Virus record (IMG/VR): IMGVR_UViG_3300024239_000015
Coordinates: 62,001-126,000 of that record
Direction: 5' to 3' (one strand)
Source: a virus
DNA length: 64,000 nt
This document shows, piece after piece, positions 3,088 through 62,245 of the stretch. Made by a program: the position numbers and the translations under genes. A model generated the notes under the pieces. That model saw only the letters and a list, made by a program, of their open reading frames with translations, did not search any database and was not told the DNA's origin. Numbering within the stretch: the stretch's first letter is position 1; every line of letters starts with the position of its first letter.

Positions 3088-3117
3088 AAAAAGAGGGAGT
3101 TTCGACTCCCTCTTTTT
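3088..3117 (-). terminator. Intrinsic terminator with four-base loop, both orientations
   Basis: A stem of at least 11 bp (AAAGAGGGAGT / ACTCCCTCTTT) closes the loop TTCG (CGAA on the minus strand). T-runs occur on both strands. It ends the minus-strand gene that stops at 3173. Confidence 0.85.
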
Positions 3118-3525: not shown

Positions 3526-4986
3526 TTACTCCGGTGAGAAACCCACACGAACCTTTTTCATTCTTCCTTCGAAGATTTCTGCTAAAGTACCAGCAGTCGC
3601 ACAGGACTCTGGTAACTCGTAATGGTTCACAACGCGTGTTGCCTCATGTGAGGTCAGCTCGCGGGTTTCTACCGCTTTGTAACAACGACCAGGACGTATC
3701 AGTGCTTGGTCTATTTTGTTACGCGTGGATAAGTTTGTGGTGATCACCAATTTGATCTTTTTAGAAGCGATACCCTGTAACTCGTTTAACAACATCGACA
3801 TCAGCTCATTACCGTCCTGCCCTTCTCTAGGCGCAAGTAACGTATCTACGTCTTCGAAGATCACCAACGTGTTATCTGGAATCGACATAAAGTACGCGGG
3901 AAACATTGCGTTACGTAAATGGTGCGTACCACCGATTTGTAACAGACGGTAACCTTTGCTGTCACCCGCGCGACAGATCTGTGCTAATAACGAACTCTTC
4001 CCAGTCCCGTAAGGACCTAACAGTAAGGTCATGTTTGCGTTAGACTGGAAGAAGCCCTCTATGTAAGCATCCACTCCACCGTCTAAGTAAGGGTAGTTGA
4101 CGTCGTGTGGTATGTTCTTTCCAGGAACAATCTCACGCGTGGTTACAGTACCCTTACCGTTACAGTCGATGTTCGTTAACAACGACAGCTTCACGGGCTG
4201 TTCAACTTCCCACTTCTTAAACCACTCGAGCTCTTGTAAGATCTTCGGCTGGTCCTTGCGTTCGAAGTAAGCCGCATACACAAACTTCGTCCCGTTAACG
4301 TTCACACGGATCGCAGACGTTAAGATTTCGTTGTCGCCATGAATGCGTTTGCGGTATGCGTTAAAACCAGGCAAGTCTTTATCGAACGAGTACTCGATCA
4401 CGTACTCTAAACTTTCGAGGTATTGTGCTATTTCCTCTACCGTCTCTAGGGTAAATTCTTGGCAGGCAAAACGTCTTTCCAAAAACCCCGTAGAAATACC
4501 ATTCGCCAAATGGTGTTCTACGATTCGAAGTACTCCAGTGATAGCACGTAGTGACATGATATCGGAGAACGTAGTGATTTGTAAGCGAGTGTGTGTCATT
4601 TCTGAAAAATCTCCGTTGAGATACGCTGTGAAAAAGAACCAAGGGTTGGTGAAACCCACATCGGCCATGTGTGATGTAGCCGCCGGTCTACTTTTGTCAA
4701 CTGTTTTAAGGTGCAGTGCAGTCGAGATACCAACGACAGGCGTTCCGGGTATAACTAAGAACGCTTTGCAGGTTAGGTCGATCCCTCCCAGTCTATTAAA
4801 ATCGAAATGATCAAAGTTGACGGGGACGGAGGGTAGACTTGAGACAGACCGCCTCAACGGAAGATTTTCTTTCGCGATCGGTTCTAATAAATCGGTCCAC
4901 TCGGCGTCGTAGCTTGCGAATTCCCAATTCGGCATCATGGGTCTTTCGATAGTTCTTCGTAGGGATTTCCACCCTGAAGGGTCCAT
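3526..4986 (-). CDS. AAA+ ATPase, tandem paralogue 1, 486 aa
   Basis: The C-terminal half is an AAA+ module: Walker A LLLGPYGTGKSS, Walker B LVIFEDVD, sensor-1-like LVITTNL and an RPGRCYK segment typical of BCS1/FtsH-like AAA proteins. The N-terminal about 280 residues form a domain shared with the neighbouring paralogue (RAITGVLRIVEHHLANG here, RAMTGVLRINEHHFANN there). The start at ATG 4986 (MDPSGWKS) has GAGGAG at the right distance; an ATG six bases earlier does not. Such ATPases remodel protein complexes, but the substrate is unknown. Confidence 0.85.
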   Translation of the reverse strand: MDPSGWKSLRRTIERPMMPNWEFASYDAEWTDLLEPIAKENLPLRRSVSSLPSVPVNFDHFDFNRLGGIDLTCKAFLVIPGTPVVGISTALHLKTVDKSRPAATSHMADVGFTNPWFFFTAYLNGDFSEMTHTRLQITTFSDIMSLRAITGVLRIVEHHLANGISTGFLERRFACQEFTLETVEEIAQYLESLEYVIEYSFDKDLPGFNAYRKRIHGDNEILTSAIRVNVNGTKFVYAAYFERKDQPKILQELEWFKKWEVEQPVKLSLLTNIDCNGKGTVTTREIVPGKNIPHDVNYPYLDGGVDAYIEGFFQSNANMTLLLGPYGTGKSSLLAQICRAGDSKGYRLLQIGGTHHLRNAMFPAYFMSIPDNTLVIFEDVDTLLAPREGQDGNELMSMLLNELQGIASKKIKLVITTNLSTRNKIDQALIRPGRCYKAVETRELTSHEATRVVNHYELPESCATAGTLAEIFEGRMKKVRVGFSPE

Positions 4987-5005
4987 ATGCATCTCCTCTA
5001 AATCG

Positions 5006-5029
5006 ACAGGGGAGGAAACCCTCCCCTGT
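5006..5029. terminator. GC-rich intergenic hairpin
   Basis: ACAGGGGAGG pairs perfectly with CCTCCCCTGT around a 4-base loop between the two AAA+ genes. There is no U-tract on the minus strand and no TATG, so it may attenuate transcription or protect an RNA end rather than terminate fully. Confidence 0.55.
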
Positions 5030-5037
5030 AGTTCTAA

Positions 5038-6414
5038 CTACACACGAAAGCCAGGGCCCGCGGTCAGCTCTGCAGCGTTTGGACCATCTAAAACATCCGC
5101 TAAACTTACGTTATCCCGAATGCGGTCTTCCGGTAAGTTTAACTCCGCAACAATCACCGCAGCTTGATCGCGCGTTAGGTGTTTGAATTGTTTCAATGCG
5201 TAACAACGACCCGGACGGAACAATGCCGGCTCTATCATTTTCGTGTTTTCTAAGTTCGTGGTGATTACAAACTTAACGTCGCGTACAGTCACTCCAGACA
5301 ACTCATTCAGTAACGTTGAGATGCTGGTGTTCCCTTCTTCACGTTTACCGATTAAGGTGTCAGCTTCTTCGATTAAGACTAGTGAGTTTTCTGGTATCTT
5401 CGTCAGATATGCATCAAACGCTGGGTGCGTCAACACTTTCTCACCGCAGAATTGGTAGATTTTCCGTTCGCCCGCACTACGACATAAGTGCCGCAACAAC
5501 GTAGACTTGCCTGTACCTGGAGGGCCGATCAGCAACAACAAGTTGTTTTTGTCGTCTAAGAACGATTCGGTAACGCCATCCAAACCGCCTTCCAGATATG
5601 GATAGAACATATCTTTCGGCGGATTGAAGTTTTCGTCCACGACACGAATTGTGATATCCGCTTCACCGTTTGGTGTAAACCCTACTACGTAATTTATCGT
5701 TGTTGGAGGAGTCGATTTGTATTGTTCCAAAAATGCGATGATCTTCGACTCTTTTACGTCGTGTCCGTCTGCAACGTAGCTCGCGTATCTGAGTTTTTCA
5801 GAACTCACCGAAATGTGAATTGCGGCAACCATGAACTTGTGACCTAGGTCGAGTTCTGTGATATAGAATGCATTGATTGCAAAGGAGTCGGCACCGGAAT
5901 CACGGCTTTCTACCAAGTAACCTAACTCTTTTAAGAACACCACCGTGGATTTAAGTGCTCCGCGGTTGTATCCTTTTTGTAGGTAATCAAAGTCGGTAAA
6001 CGCTGTGGATACGTTATTCGCGAAGTGATGTTCGTTGATACGTAACACACCCGTCATGGCACGTAAAGCGATAAGTTCTTCGGCGGTACGTACGAAGGCT
6101 AAGTTTTGAATAGTTTGCATGAGCTCTCCTAAGAGGTTTAAGTAATGAAATTTAAGTATATCCTCGTAGTCCGAGTTGGTGGGATCTACGAGAGTCGGTC
6201 GTGTTAAAATGATTTGGATGTCGTTACTGTGGCTGAACCTACACGCGGTATAGAGTGTTTCTACGTCGTATCGAGAGTATAACTCGATGTCTTCGCAAAA
6301 CACCGTTCCTGTGACCGCTTGGAGTAACCACCGCCACTGTTTGAAATCTCCCAGAGGGATGGTACGGTCGTAAACGATCTCCGGTATCAGCGGGTCGGCG
6401 TCCTCAGCGATCAT
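5038..6414 (-). CDS. AAA+ ATPase, tandem paralogue 2, 458 aa
   Basis: This has the same architecture as the next gene downstream: a shared N-terminal domain, then Walker A LLLIGPPGTGKST, Walker B LVLIEEADTL, sensor-1 FVITTNL and a second-region RPGRCYALK. ATG 6414 (MIAEDADP) is chosen because it overlaps the upstream TGA (ATGA) and follows GGGGA; an in-frame start at 6573 would overlap the neighbour by over 150 bases. The pair probably arose by duplication and may form a mixed ring, which is inference. Confidence 0.85.
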   Translation of the reverse strand: MIAEDADPLIPEIVYDRTIPLGDFKQWRWLLQAVTGTVFCEDIELYSRYDVETLYTACRFSHSNDIQIILTRPTLVDPTNSDYEDILKFHYLNLLGELMQTIQNLAFVRTAEELIALRAMTGVLRINEHHFANNVSTAFTDFDYLQKGYNRGALKSTVVFLKELGYLVESRDSGADSFAINAFYITELDLGHKFMVAAIHISVSSEKLRYASYVADGHDVKESKIIAFLEQYKSTPPTTINYVVGFTPNGEADITIRVVDENFNPPKDMFYPYLEGGLDGVTESFLDDKNNLLLLIGPPGTGKSTLLRHLCRSAGERKIYQFCGEKVLTHPAFDAYLTKIPENSLVLIEEADTLIGKREEGNTSISTLLNELSGVTVRDVKFVITTNLENTKMIEPALFRPGRCYALKQFKHLTRDQAAVIVAELNLPEDRIRDNVSLADVLDGPNAAELTAGPGFRV

Positions 6415-6842
6415 AAATCCCCCAGAATAATCGCTAGTTCCAAAGAGCGTTTGGTTGACTTCTGAGTGTTCGTAACGTATTCGAAGACCTGCTTGTCGTG
6501 GGGGGTGTTGAACGACTGTCTGTGGTTGTACCCCAAGTACAACGACGTACGATCTAGCACCGCAGGCGAGCAATACAACATCGTTGATCTGCGGTCTGGT
6601 ATGTACGCCAGAGGCTGTAGAAACGGAATCGTATCGGCAAACATTCCTGAGTAAGAGGGGTGCGCAACCGAAAACGGATGGTCTCCTACCTCACTATTCG
6701 CGTGTAGGTCTACAGAGAACATAGGAGCCACACAGAACAAGTCGGGTTGGACTGGGAGTTGTACTCCTTCTTTCAGTTGGGCAATCGTGCACACAGGACG
6801 TTCGTGCTCAAAGACCCACGCATGCACTGTTTTTATTTTCAT
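6411..6842 (-). CDS. Hypothetical protein, 143 aa, paralogue of next upstream gene
   Basis: ATG 6842 (MKIKTVHAW) overlaps the upstream stop (ATGA) and follows GGAGGGAGTT. It shares motifs with the 149-residue neighbour: LPVQPDLFCVAPMFSVD here and VVQPTLFSVAPLLCVD there, and a later Y-x-x-PAxL pattern. The two are therefore tandem paralogues, probably beta-rich. Function unknown; both are coupled to the AAA+ genes downstream. Confidence 0.8.
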   Translation of the reverse strand: MKIKTVHAWVFEHERPVCTIAQLKEGVQLPVQPDLFCVAPMFSVDLHANSEVGDHPFSVAHPSYSGMFADTIPFLQPLAYIPDRRSTMLYCSPAVLDRTSLYLGYNHRQSFNTPHDKQVFEYVTNTQKSTKRSLELAIILGDL

Positions 6843-7288
6843 AACTCCCTCCAAAGGGCTAATGCATTTAAAAGCCCAATGAGCGCCACTGTGGTGTCGA
6901 ATTCCAACCCATGCGGGTGGTCTACCACCAACGGGATAAACCCACCAGCTCTCGTCCACTCCCCACGGAGTTGTATGTACAAGTCTATGGGTTTAGGAGG
7001 GTGTACGTACGCAGTAGCACCAGACAACACTCCGTCTCTCCACGCGATGTGTTGTTGGAATAAAGACCTCCCTACTAGCATTGCAGGTTGGGTGTAGAAA
7101 ATACATTCGCTGTACTCGTCATACGCGGTGTTGTGTAGGTTAGGGTCTACGCACAGTAGCGGTGCGACAGAAAAGAGTGTGGGTTGTACCACACTCTGTC
7201 TGTTTGCTAAGTGTAAGACCACGTGATGGAACGGCTGTTCTTCCCCTCGCCGGTACTCGATGTGAGGCATAGCAAACATACAAGTCAC
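6839..7288 (-). CDS. Hypothetical protein, 149 aa, paralogue of next downstream gene
   Basis: GTG 7288 sits 7 bases after GGAGG; the ATG three codons later is too far from it, so I take GTG. It shares the QPxLFxVAP motif and general length with the downstream gene. No known domain is seen. It follows the HNH gene by 12 bases in the same operon. Confidence 0.75.
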   Translation of the reverse strand: MTCMFAMPHIEYRRGEEQPFHHVVLHLANRQSVVQPTLFSVAPLLCVDPNLHNTAYDEYSECIFYTQPAMLVGRSLFQQHIAWRDGVLSGATAYVHPPKPIDLYIQLRGEWTRAGGFIPLVVDHPHGLEFDTTVALIGLLNALALWREL

Positions 7289-8452: not shown

Positions 8453-8763
8453 TAGAGTACTCCTTGAATTTGTTTATTGATTTCGAACGTATTTGAATCG
8501 ACTGTGTAAGTCGTTTTGGGCTCTGACACCAAAGGCATCCAGTGGGCTGAGAAACTCCCCGTGGTGTAGCTACGCATTCCTCTACTGCCGGGACGATACA
8601 TAACGGTGAGTTTACCAGGACCAAACGAAGTGTGGAGTGGATGTTCTACCACCGTTAAGTGATCGGTTTCTGACGTGAAGGTTTGATCTACAAACACTTC
8701 GACAGTTTGTACGTCACCGTTCTGGCGCTGTGTCAATAAAAAGCTTTTGTAGTTTAATTGCAT
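8452..8763 (-). CDS. Small beta-rich protein, 103 aa
   Basis: ATG 8763 follows AAAGGAATTT, and the TAA overlaps the next start. The stretch GPGKLTVMYRPGS...TTGSF...PLVSEP resembles GEGLVTLLYDHSS...SGSF...PLIDQP in the gene at 9580-9876, so the two look like diverged paralogues on either side of the QueC-like gene. Function unknown. Confidence 0.75.
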   Translation of the reverse strand: MQLNYKSFLLTQRQNGDVQTVEVFVDQTFTSETDHLTVVEHPLHTSFGPGKLTVMYRPGSRGMRSYTTGSFSAHWMPLVSEPKTTYTVDSNTFEINKQIQGVL

Positions 8764-8782: not shown

Positions 8783-9580
8783 TTAACCGTACGTACTGGT
8801 GAGTGCGCAGTACTCGGCTTCTGAACTTATAGATGGGAACGGCGAGCGTATTAACTCACGAGCGTTCGATTCTTCGTATTTTTGTTCAAAATAAGCAGCG
8901 GACAGGTTTGCTTCTTCAGGGCGTTCTAATTGAGCATTCCACGCTTTGAGTCGTTTGATGTTGTGGTTCGTTACTCCCTTCGTGAGAAACGCAGCATCCA
9001 TACGACGACAGGGGGCGCAGTTCCCACAGCGATGGATAGTCTCTCGTTCTATAGGACACTCACACACCCACGTCGTTTCAAAGACGTTGTCTGGTGAGTC
9101 GCGTAAAATTTGTTCTTTGGACAGATAAGCCAAAGGAACTTCTAGAGGAAACTCCTCACCCCAACTCAGCTGCGACATCGCAGACCAAAGCTGTTTGATT
9201 ATAGGAAGTTTTCCTGTTTCTTCCATCAAATACCCGACTACTAACGCACTATGGCGTTCTGGGTTAAACGCCCGTGCGGCTGCAACTGCCCACGTCTGTG
9301 GTTGATTCCAGTGGGGTATTAGGCGGTCACCTTTCTTACAACAATTCCACCAGTCGAGCTCACACTCGTACTCCCGTACCGACCATGGATAGTCCTCTTT
9401 TTGCCTTATTGAAGCTAAGAACTTTTCTCTCACTTCTAACTCTTTCTTTTTCTTTAAGGGATGTACTGCCGTATGAACATACAAGACGTCAAACGGTTCT
9501 TTGTTTGAAACTAACTGACGCAGTATGTGCGTACTATCCATTCCACCACTGTACAAGACTAACTTTCTTTTCTCTGACAT
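8783..9580 (-). CDS. queC: QueC-like 7-cyano-7-deazaguanine synthase, 265 aa
   Basis: The N-terminal PP-loop SGGMDST binds ATP, and a C-terminal zinc site CECP...RCGNCAPC carries the four-cysteine pattern of QueC. QueC converts 7-carboxy-7-deazaguanine to preQ0. In phages this serves queuosine tRNA or, more often, 7-deazaguanine modification of DNA. ATG 9580 shares its A with the upstream TGA and has GGAGACC before it. No QueD, QueE, FolE or DpdA gene is seen here, so the rest of the pathway must lie elsewhere or come from the host. The middle is somewhat diverged, so another PP-loop substrate is possible. Confidence 0.8.
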   Translation of the reverse strand: MSEKRKLVLYSGGMDSTHILRQLVSNKEPFDVLYVHTAVHPLKKKKELEVREKFLASIRQKEDYPWSVREYECELDWWNCCKKGDRLIPHWNQPQTWAVAAARAFNPERHSALVVGYLMEETGKLPIIKQLWSAMSQLSWGEEFPLEVPLAYLSKEQILRDSPDNVFETTWVCECPIERETIHRCGNCAPCRRMDAAFLTKGVTNHNIKRLKAWNAQLERPEEANLSAAYFEQKYEESNARELIRSPFPSISSEAEYCALTSTYG

Positions 9581-9876
9581 CAAGGTCTCCTTTCTATTGC
9601 TATTGCGTTAATTCCCACCCAGTTCCACACGACGCCGGGTTGGTCGATTAAAGGTTTAAAACTTCCAGAGTGTTTTCCGCTCGAGTGGTCGTATAAAAGT
9701 GTCACCAAACCTTCTCCAAGGGCCGTAGCGACGTTTAAATTCTTTACGAGTACCGTATTAGTGTCTAACGATTCAAAACGCTTAGCGACCCGTACAGTGA
9801 GTTGTCTTCCTTTCCCATTGGGGTACCTGACGTCCAGTCGGATACTTTTGAGTTGTAGCGCTTTGAGTAATGCCAT
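9580..9876 (-). CDS. Small beta-rich protein, 98 aa
   Basis: It is coupled to the QueC-like gene by a one-base stop/start overlap. Its sequence pattern resembles the 103-residue protein at 8452-8763. No signal peptide or membrane segment is seen. Function unknown, but its placement suggests it may be co-expressed with the deazaguanine enzyme. Confidence 0.75.
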   Translation of the reverse strand: MALLKALQLKSIRLDVRYPNGKGRQLTVRVAKRFESLDTNTVLVKNLNVATALGEGLVTLLYDHSSGKHSGSFKPLIDQPGVVWNWVGINAIAIERRP

Positions 9877-10296: not shown

Positions 10297-10524
10297 TTAA
10301 TGTTTAACTCTGATGTGTCCTACCGTCAATCGTACTATCCACATAACAGGCCAGAGTAATATACACAAACAATACCCCCAACCTGTGTTTAAGTAGTAGT
10401 TGATCGTTCCGTAAGGCACACGACGATCGTACATACACCACCCAAAATACCAGTAGGTGACGAACTGGGATACCGCCACAATACCGTAAAGATAGAAAGC
10501 GAAACCCAACCAAACATCGATCAT
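10297..10524 (-). CDS. Small membrane protein, 75 aa
   Basis: Two hydrophobic segments (about residues 5-28 and 48-66) flank a polar loop with YDRRVPYGT. ATG 10524 follows AAGGGAG. The neighbour at 10573-10800 has the same length, topology and a YDPKVP loop, so the two are probably a duplicated pair. A role in the host inner membrane is likely; a holin-type role is possible but unsupported. Confidence 0.75.
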   Translation of the reverse strand: MIDVWLGFAFYLYGIVAVSQFVTYWYFGWCMYDRRVPYGTINYYLNTGWGYCLCILLWPVMWIVRLTVGHIRVKH

Positions 10525-10572: not shown

Positions 10573-10800
10573 CTATTCCGTCTTGTTTCGGTAACGGTCT
10601 AAGTAGACGTCTAACACACCAAAAGAGATTAGTAGTGGCCATCCTAGTACAGCCGCTAAATCTAACCAGAAGTCTTTACGGGTACGTTGTGGAGGGACTT
10701 TAGGATCGTACGTCGCCCACCACACAAACCCAAAAAGTAAAGACCCCATCACCCAGATGAATCCAACCACCAGTAATAAAATCCAAAGTAAAGTGTACAT
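10573..10800 (-). CDS. Small membrane protein, 75 aa, likely paralogue of its neighbour
   Basis: A strong GGAGGTAAG precedes ATG 10800. The N-terminal hydrophobic segment (residues 1-28) and a second one (about 48-68) flank a loop with YDPKVPPQR, matching the loop of the gene at 10297-10524. Function unknown. Confidence 0.75.
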   Translation of the reverse strand: MYTLLWILLLVVGFIWVMGSLLFGFVWWATYDPKVPPQRTRKDFWLDLAAVLGWPLLISFGVLDVYLDRYRNKTE

Positions 10801-61773: not shown

Positions 61774-62245
61774 GGGTGGTCTCCTGTATAGGTTTTAACA
61801 CTACTGGGCTGAATTTAATCAGTCGAGTAGCTTTATTTTCATAGAGCTCCGTGTCAAGTAACAACACGAACGAACCATCGGTTTGTTTTGCAAGTACCGC
61901 CTGAAAAGGAGAGAAGGACTCCCCTTTCAAGATCTTACTTTTCGAATAACCGATAAGTGCTCCCATGGCGGTAGCGGACAAAGTGAAACACGTGTGGTTG
62001 AATGGAGTGAGGCCAAACCGAGGAATAGCAGCTTGAACAAACTCTTTGACTAAACCATCGGCTGTGTCGGTCTCTTCGTACTCTAAAGCAACGGTTTCTT
62101 TCAGCTGAATATCGTGGTCTCCTACTAAAGGGGTAACGAACACCCCTTGATACACGAAGGGTTGGTCTTCTTCAAGTAACCGACGACGAAGCATATCCGC
62201 TTCGCTAAAGTCTTTGTTCTTAGTGATGGATACGACGTTGTCCAT
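61766..62245 (-). CDS. Hypothetical protein, 159 aa
   Basis: ATG 62245 (MDNVVSITKNKD) follows GGAGGCGAGTAGA, in which the upstream TAG lies. An in-frame ATG at 62281 would overlap the neighbour by 35 bases. Mixed alpha/beta protein, immediately upstream of the exonuclease gene. Not recognised. Confidence 0.7.
   Translation of the reverse strand: MDNVVSITKNKDFSEADMLRRRLLEEDQPFVYQGVFVTPLVGDHDIQLKETVALEYEETDTADGLVKEFVQAAIPRFGLTPFNHTCFTLSATAMGALIGYSKSKILKGESFSPFQAVLAKQTDGSFVLLLDTELYENKATRLIKFSPVVLKPIQETTRE

Follow-up and report, generated by a model that had tools for sequence, protein, structure and literature searches.

A window of 64,000 nucleotides (positions 62,001 to 126,000 of the 233,377-bp IMG/VR virus record IMGVR_UViG_3300024239_000015) carries two neighbouring genes for AAA+ ATPases, here called AAA1 and AAA2, preceded on the minus strand by two small genes, s1 and s2 (Table 1). 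We find that the two ATPase genes, which belong to a phage family already known, are genuine tandem duplicates and that the two small genes beside them are orphans; the new conserved four-gene machine envisaged in a preliminary description of this DNA is not supported. We put the chances at about even that AAA1 and AAA2 are two BCS1-type classical AAA+ ATPases, probably soluble, that arose by tandem duplication, form rings and handle folded proteins. Genes in the window match PHROG families of multi-subunit RNA polymerase, and a structural protein of the same phage matched 270 phage records, with several jumbo phages among the 15 listed. We read the virus as phiKZ-like, a giant bacterial virus (jumbo phage).

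AAA1 and AAA2 are certain paralogues. They are 35% identical over 360 amino acids (aa; E value 2e-62) in an alignment that spans middle domain and ATPase core alike, which confirms the earlier observation that they share an N-terminal domain as well as the core, and they form the strongest of the 3160 gene pairs in the window. The two are sisters, with support of 99/92, in a tree of 41 rows (39 of them different) that has long branches and leaves 11 of 36 forks open. The pair is a tandem duplication within the phiKZ-like lineage. A third AAA gene of the record (G000:C1, at 154 kb) was considered as a further copy and rejected, since its match to AAA1 was weak.

Relatives of the ATPase were found in phiKZ, PA1C, Phabio, FLC9, ME3, CBB, Vibrio phages and T4-like contigs, and the local duplication is unusual among them. 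We scanned 92 records, 91 of which had matches, many of the loci being short fragments; an adjacent pair occurred nowhere but at the loci of the window phage itself and at locus L049, and a Siatvirus locus (Klebsiella phage KpLz-2_45) was added later. The Siatvirus locus resembles the window in having two ATPases of this family side by side and in one orientation, but differs in having a 114-aa open reading frame (ORF) between the copies and no match to s1 or s2. Its two ATPases group separately in the tree (100/96), so the two duplications look independent. Contig G007 has a pair identical to the Siatvirus pair in the tree, plus a further copy elsewhere in the contig. We found no papers on paralogues in jumbo phages in the open literature, where no query was aimed at tandem BCS1 pairs.

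The predicted fold points to BCS1. When the predicted model of AAA1 (mean predicted local distance difference test score, pLDDT, 77) was searched with Foldseek, BCS1 chains took ranks 1–10 (best E value 9.4e-14), with nearly the full length aligned; the first match outside BCS1 was the cellular protein YjoB of Bacillus subtilis. VIA-align paired 263 residues with BCS1 8t14 (model residues 138–449, reaching into the middle domain) at a root-mean-square deviation of 6.0, whereas most other rows paired ~180–200 residues, in the ATPase core only. Conserved residues were read from an alignment of 64 phage relatives, which also supplied the family profile. The Walker lysine, the Walker B glutamate, the sensor asparagine and both finger arginines are invariant in all 64, and the Walker lysine lies 43–49 residues from the Walker B glutamate. 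No member has an Ar-phi-G pore-loop motif between the Walker motifs (0 of 64), a feature picked from this alignment and from background knowledge. Walker B, picked from the same alignment, reads E-D in 63 of 64 members, including AAA2, with AAA1 reading E-E; the E-D order is common to the phage family and BCS1, whereas AFG2 has D-E. The AFG2 segment YLGET/YVGES is missing from the phage alignment, where BCS1 requires no insertion. Scored per domain, the profile gives BCS1 60.2 bits (one domain) and AFG2 33.3 and 30.8 bits. The window ATPases thus resemble mitochondrial BCS1 in their best Foldseek matches, in the lack of a canonical pore-loop motif and in the E-D Walker B order, and we conclude that AAA1 and AAA2 probably belong with the BCS1-type ATPases and probably represent no new type of machine. 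BCS1-type ATPases have already been reported in jumbo phages by a 2021 survey (PMC7824862), which counts against the suggestion of an unfamiliar machine; the BCS1 set of that survey may include phiKZ gp208 and sequences of the window type.

Several observations weigh against this assignment. Scored over whole proteins of solved structure, the family profile is led by AFG2 (66.5 bits, two domains), followed by BCS1 (60.8) and, close behind, the single-domain proteasomal Rpt6 (57.3). Searched alone, AAA1 scores higher with Cdc48 than with BCS1 (37.6 against 34.8 bits), and AAA2 matches AFG2 (E value 2.5e-9) better than BCS1 (7e-6), so that sequence scores by themselves do not separate BCS1 from Cdc48, AFG2 and the proteasomal ATPases. 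VIA-align gives its highest Z to YjoB (15.8) and places proteasomal and p97 chains level with or above BCS1 (14.8), a difference that the program's own note treats as a tie. Residues 1–107 of AAA1 fall below a pLDDT of 50 and are left without a model. The BCS1 papers, moreover, still name a cargo-contacting pore loop 1 (PMC12219900/PMC11143374).

Family libraries place both proteins in the same group. Among the families listed (for AAA1, the best 25 of 34), PF00004 exceeded its cut-off for both ATPases and NACHT for AAA1, and the BCS1 N-terminal Pfam model was absent. The top PHROG for both is phrog_14322, the family of phiKZ gp208, with which the window ATPases share the layout of middle domain followed by AAA domain and a C-terminal GF motif. 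That motif (AAA1 residues 455–456) occurs in 61 of the 64 members. The window differs from this family in its tandem pair, where most of the loci examined have one gene, and in N-terminal extensions of ~107 and ~140 residues. phiKZ gp208 was found in high-molecular-weight sedimentation fractions (PMC10914614). Two further candidates were rejected. A MoxR-vWA chaperone pair was set aside because no vWA family was found among the five neighbours scanned and only PF00004 and NACHT among the families listed, and a defence-system reading because the PADLOC matches of AAA1 and AAA2 (best mad8, E value 1.6e-6) span barely more than the P-loop.

The 2021 survey proposed that phage BCS1 proteins act as a membrane-proximal translocase that moves folded proteins during virion assembly (PMC7824862), and the BCS1-like predicted fold is in keeping with such a role. 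The maximum 19-residue hydropathy, however, is 0.98 for AAA1 and a borderline 1.58 for AAA2 (residue 77), set against an assumed transmembrane threshold of 1.6 that is reached by only 1 of the 64 family members; s1 and s2 also peak below it, at 1.42 and 1.04. We regard a membrane translocase as quite unlikely. Unlike mitochondrial BCS1, the window ATPases appear to have no clear N-terminal transmembrane helix, so that a role like that of the mitochondrial protein is unsupported, a further point against the BCS1 reading. Their C-terminal lid, as read from the model, also seems short compared with that of mitochondrial BCS1.

ATP-driven handling of folded proteins is nevertheless the function that the likeness to BCS1 makes most likely. 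The BCS1 heptamer accommodates the Rieske protein, already folded, in a wide vestibule, and a concerted action has been proposed for it (PMC12219900, PMC11143374). Ring formation, folded substrates and a vestibule mechanism are suggested for the phage proteins because of this analogy. AAA1 and AAA2, each alone or together, would form a ring. Between this AAA ring and the beta-rich middle domain there would be a wide vestibule that opens and closes as ATP is bound and hydrolysed. Folded proteins would be gripped and moved or released, and not threaded by a canonical pore loop. The two copies may have specialised, by taking on different cargo or by becoming subunits of one mixed ring. The two small proteins, apparently co-translated with AAA1, would most simply be lineage-specific cargo, adaptors or regulators, a role suggested by gene order alone. 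A more elaborate version, in which a soluble mixed ring of AAA1 and AAA2, with s1 and s2 as cargo adaptors, transports folded proteins through a barrier made of protein, such as the shell of a phage nucleus, and not through a lipid membrane, we consider very unlikely.

The neighbours of the ATPase in other phages point in another direction, and a chaperone-like reading does not predict them. A gp47/SbcD-like gene lies 0–375 bp downstream of the ATPase at 30 of the 93 loci; these 30 seem to be T4-like throughout, and 21 of them have a gp46-like gene in range as well. Clusters found upstream include a late sigma factor (32 loci), a UvsW-like helicase (30) and a UvsY-like mediator (26); each cluster, on either side, takes its name from a single representative. 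In phiKZ, gp208 is located after a DprA-like recombination mediator, and in Vibrio phages a DNA polymerase and clamp loader, or a primase/helicase, are near the ATPase. These arrangements would suit an ATPase ring that remodels protein complexes of DNA recombination or replication, in which the two copies would act at different steps. Against this, the 30 T4-like loci look like one lineage and not like independent cases, and the same T4-like cluster also contains genes for tail tube, capsid and sigma factor. Several jumbo phage loci have no recombination or replication neighbour as annotated, most of their genes being labelled 'hypothetical'. In the window, the gene preceding s1 matches an HNH endonuclease in a family library scan, and the UvsX- and SbcC-like genes are more than 30 kb from the ATPases. 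On balance, a role in recombination or replication is an unlikely alternative. The T4-like contigs also encode a putative peptidase of ~716 aa, ~3.4 kb downstream of the ATPase (L062 10960–13107, and 15 further loci); it belongs to phrog_459, as judged from the one representative scanned, and looks vWA-like by eye.

The small proteins were described earlier as a second pair of paralogues. A block that includes the motif noted then, VQPxLFxVAPxxxVD, is indeed common to both, with 10 of 15 residues identical; it is the only such block, and paralogy as judged from the sequences is marginal. In favour of a relationship, BLASTP aligns s1 and s2 with 24.3 bits (E value 5e-4), their local score was matched by 8 of 5000 shuffles, and the match is the top one among 214 comparisons with ORFs of the window. 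By contrast, phmmer searches of the ORFs of the collected loci recovered the partner only at E values of 0.45 and 0.24. Among the 3160 gene pairs of the window they rank fifth (E value 7.9e-4), where ~2.5 pairs are expected by chance, in a ranking made with assumed statistical constants and with s2 in an over-extended form of 182 aa. Their adjacency (the window has 79 adjacent pairs) raises the case without proving it. We regard s1 and s2 as orphans that are possibly paralogous.

A clearer duplication of small genes lies nearby. Proteins of 103 and 98 aa (8455–8763 and 9583–9876, minus strand) flank a QueC gene and form the second of the 3160 pairs (E value 1.2e-5); they are likely paralogues, and a better case than s1 and s2. 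We rejected them as further relatives of s1 and s2, because a profile of the pair matched s2 only at an E value of 5.5 and did not match s1 within an E value of 10. The QueC-type deazaguanine gene itself (8783–9583) is a few kb from the ATPases, as is one in Pseudomonas phage PA1C (L114 7070–7807). Two neighbouring proteins of 75 aa each, both containing hydrophobic stretches (10300–10524 and 10576–10800, minus strand), are also alike by eye (E value 0.0031).

Searches for s1 and s2 elsewhere gave no relatives. No family was found in PHROGs, Pfam, NCBIfam or PADLOC, and no relative by tblastn in phages and plasmids. In viral contigs only one contig matched, with identical proteins, and in genome contigs none of 47 and 36 pattern matches was confirmed; these scans detect only peptides that agree exactly or almost exactly over a short stretch and could overlook distant relatives, and one viral-contig and one genome-contig scan were confirmed against s2 only, s1 having been scanned alone separately. 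A comparison of the small proteins with solved structures returned a single match (E value 0.84), and the AlphaFold2 model of s2 is unusable (mean pLDDT 30). Neither protein was found in 16 whole phage records (0 of 16, in a search without a positive control), and neither clusters with any protein across the 93 ATPase loci. All four proteins are present, at 100% identity, in one 116-kb contig; a search for closer relatives of the window phage yielded only contigs with identical proteins and no intermediate sequences. The absence of a conserved neighbourhood had been named in advance as grounds for refutation, and no conserved four-gene unit was found in the loci examined. The idea of a duplicated module of ATPase plus partner fares no better: beyond the lack of relatives of s1 and s2, the order s1, s2, AAA1, AAA2 would require two separate tandem duplications if s1 and s2 are paralogous, and not the duplication of one unit.

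These results bear on a plainer explanation, in which AAA1 and AAA2 are partly redundant duplicates and s1 and s2 are unrelated orphans that merely share the operon. The near-chance similarity of s1 and s2 within the window, the presence of another duplicated small-gene pair in the region and the failure to find their relatives beside the ATPase elsewhere are all consistent with it. However, AAA1 and AAA2 both retain the Walker, sensor and arginine-finger residues despite an identity of only 35–41%, which argues for selection on both, and we consider this plainer explanation improbable.

Both s1 and s2 are coding genes. The annotated frame has the best codon usage of the six for s1, clearly (0.19 bits per codon), and for s2, weakly (0.05 bits per codon), and codon usage supports the annotated frames of AAA1 and AAA2 as well. 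The listed ORFs of 511 and 182 aa are over-extended, since codon usage in the extensions fits the frame of the upstream gene. On the minus strand the order is the HNH-type gene, s1, s2, AAA1, AAA2. The statement that all four genes are translationally linked holds for s1–s2 and s2–AAA1, which overlap, and not for AAA1 and AAA2, which are separated by 45 nt that include a hairpin; AAA2 has its own GAGGAG site, and an alternative, better-spaced ATG at 4986 would give 486 aa. A 71-nt fragment with the hairpin folds at -28.8 kcal/mol (z -3.49), with 1 of 200 shuffles equally good. The hairpin perhaps sets the ratio of AAA1 to AAA2 product. A second hairpin, past the cluster, is on the plus strand in the scan listing, and its minus-strand reading likewise ends in a T run.

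Table 1. Genes and hairpins of the ATPase locus, in window coordinates.
Feature	Position	Strand	Description
s1	6839–7288	-	Orphan protein, 149 aa; GTG start behind AAGGAGG
s2	6411–6842	-	Orphan protein, 143 aa; ATG overlaps s1 stop (ATGA)
AAA1	5038–6414	-	AAA+ ATPase, probably BCS1-type, 458 aa; ATG overlaps s2 stop (ATGA)
AAA2	3526–4992	-	AAA+ ATPase paralogous to AAA1, 488 aa
Hairpin between AAA1 and AAA2	4999–5036	-	10-bp stem, 4-nt loop, no T run after it; inverted-repeat scan and folding
Terminator-like hairpin downstream of the cluster	3088–3117		13 bp, fully complementary

BCS1-type ATPases occur widely among large phages, and our literature search found no tested function for any of them. 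That the phage ATPases have no clear membrane anchor speaks against a simple transfer of the mitochondrial role to them. Separate tandem pairs in two lineages, that of the window phage and Siatvirus, suggest that the function of these ATPases can be split or elaborated, and they provide paired genes with which it can be tested.

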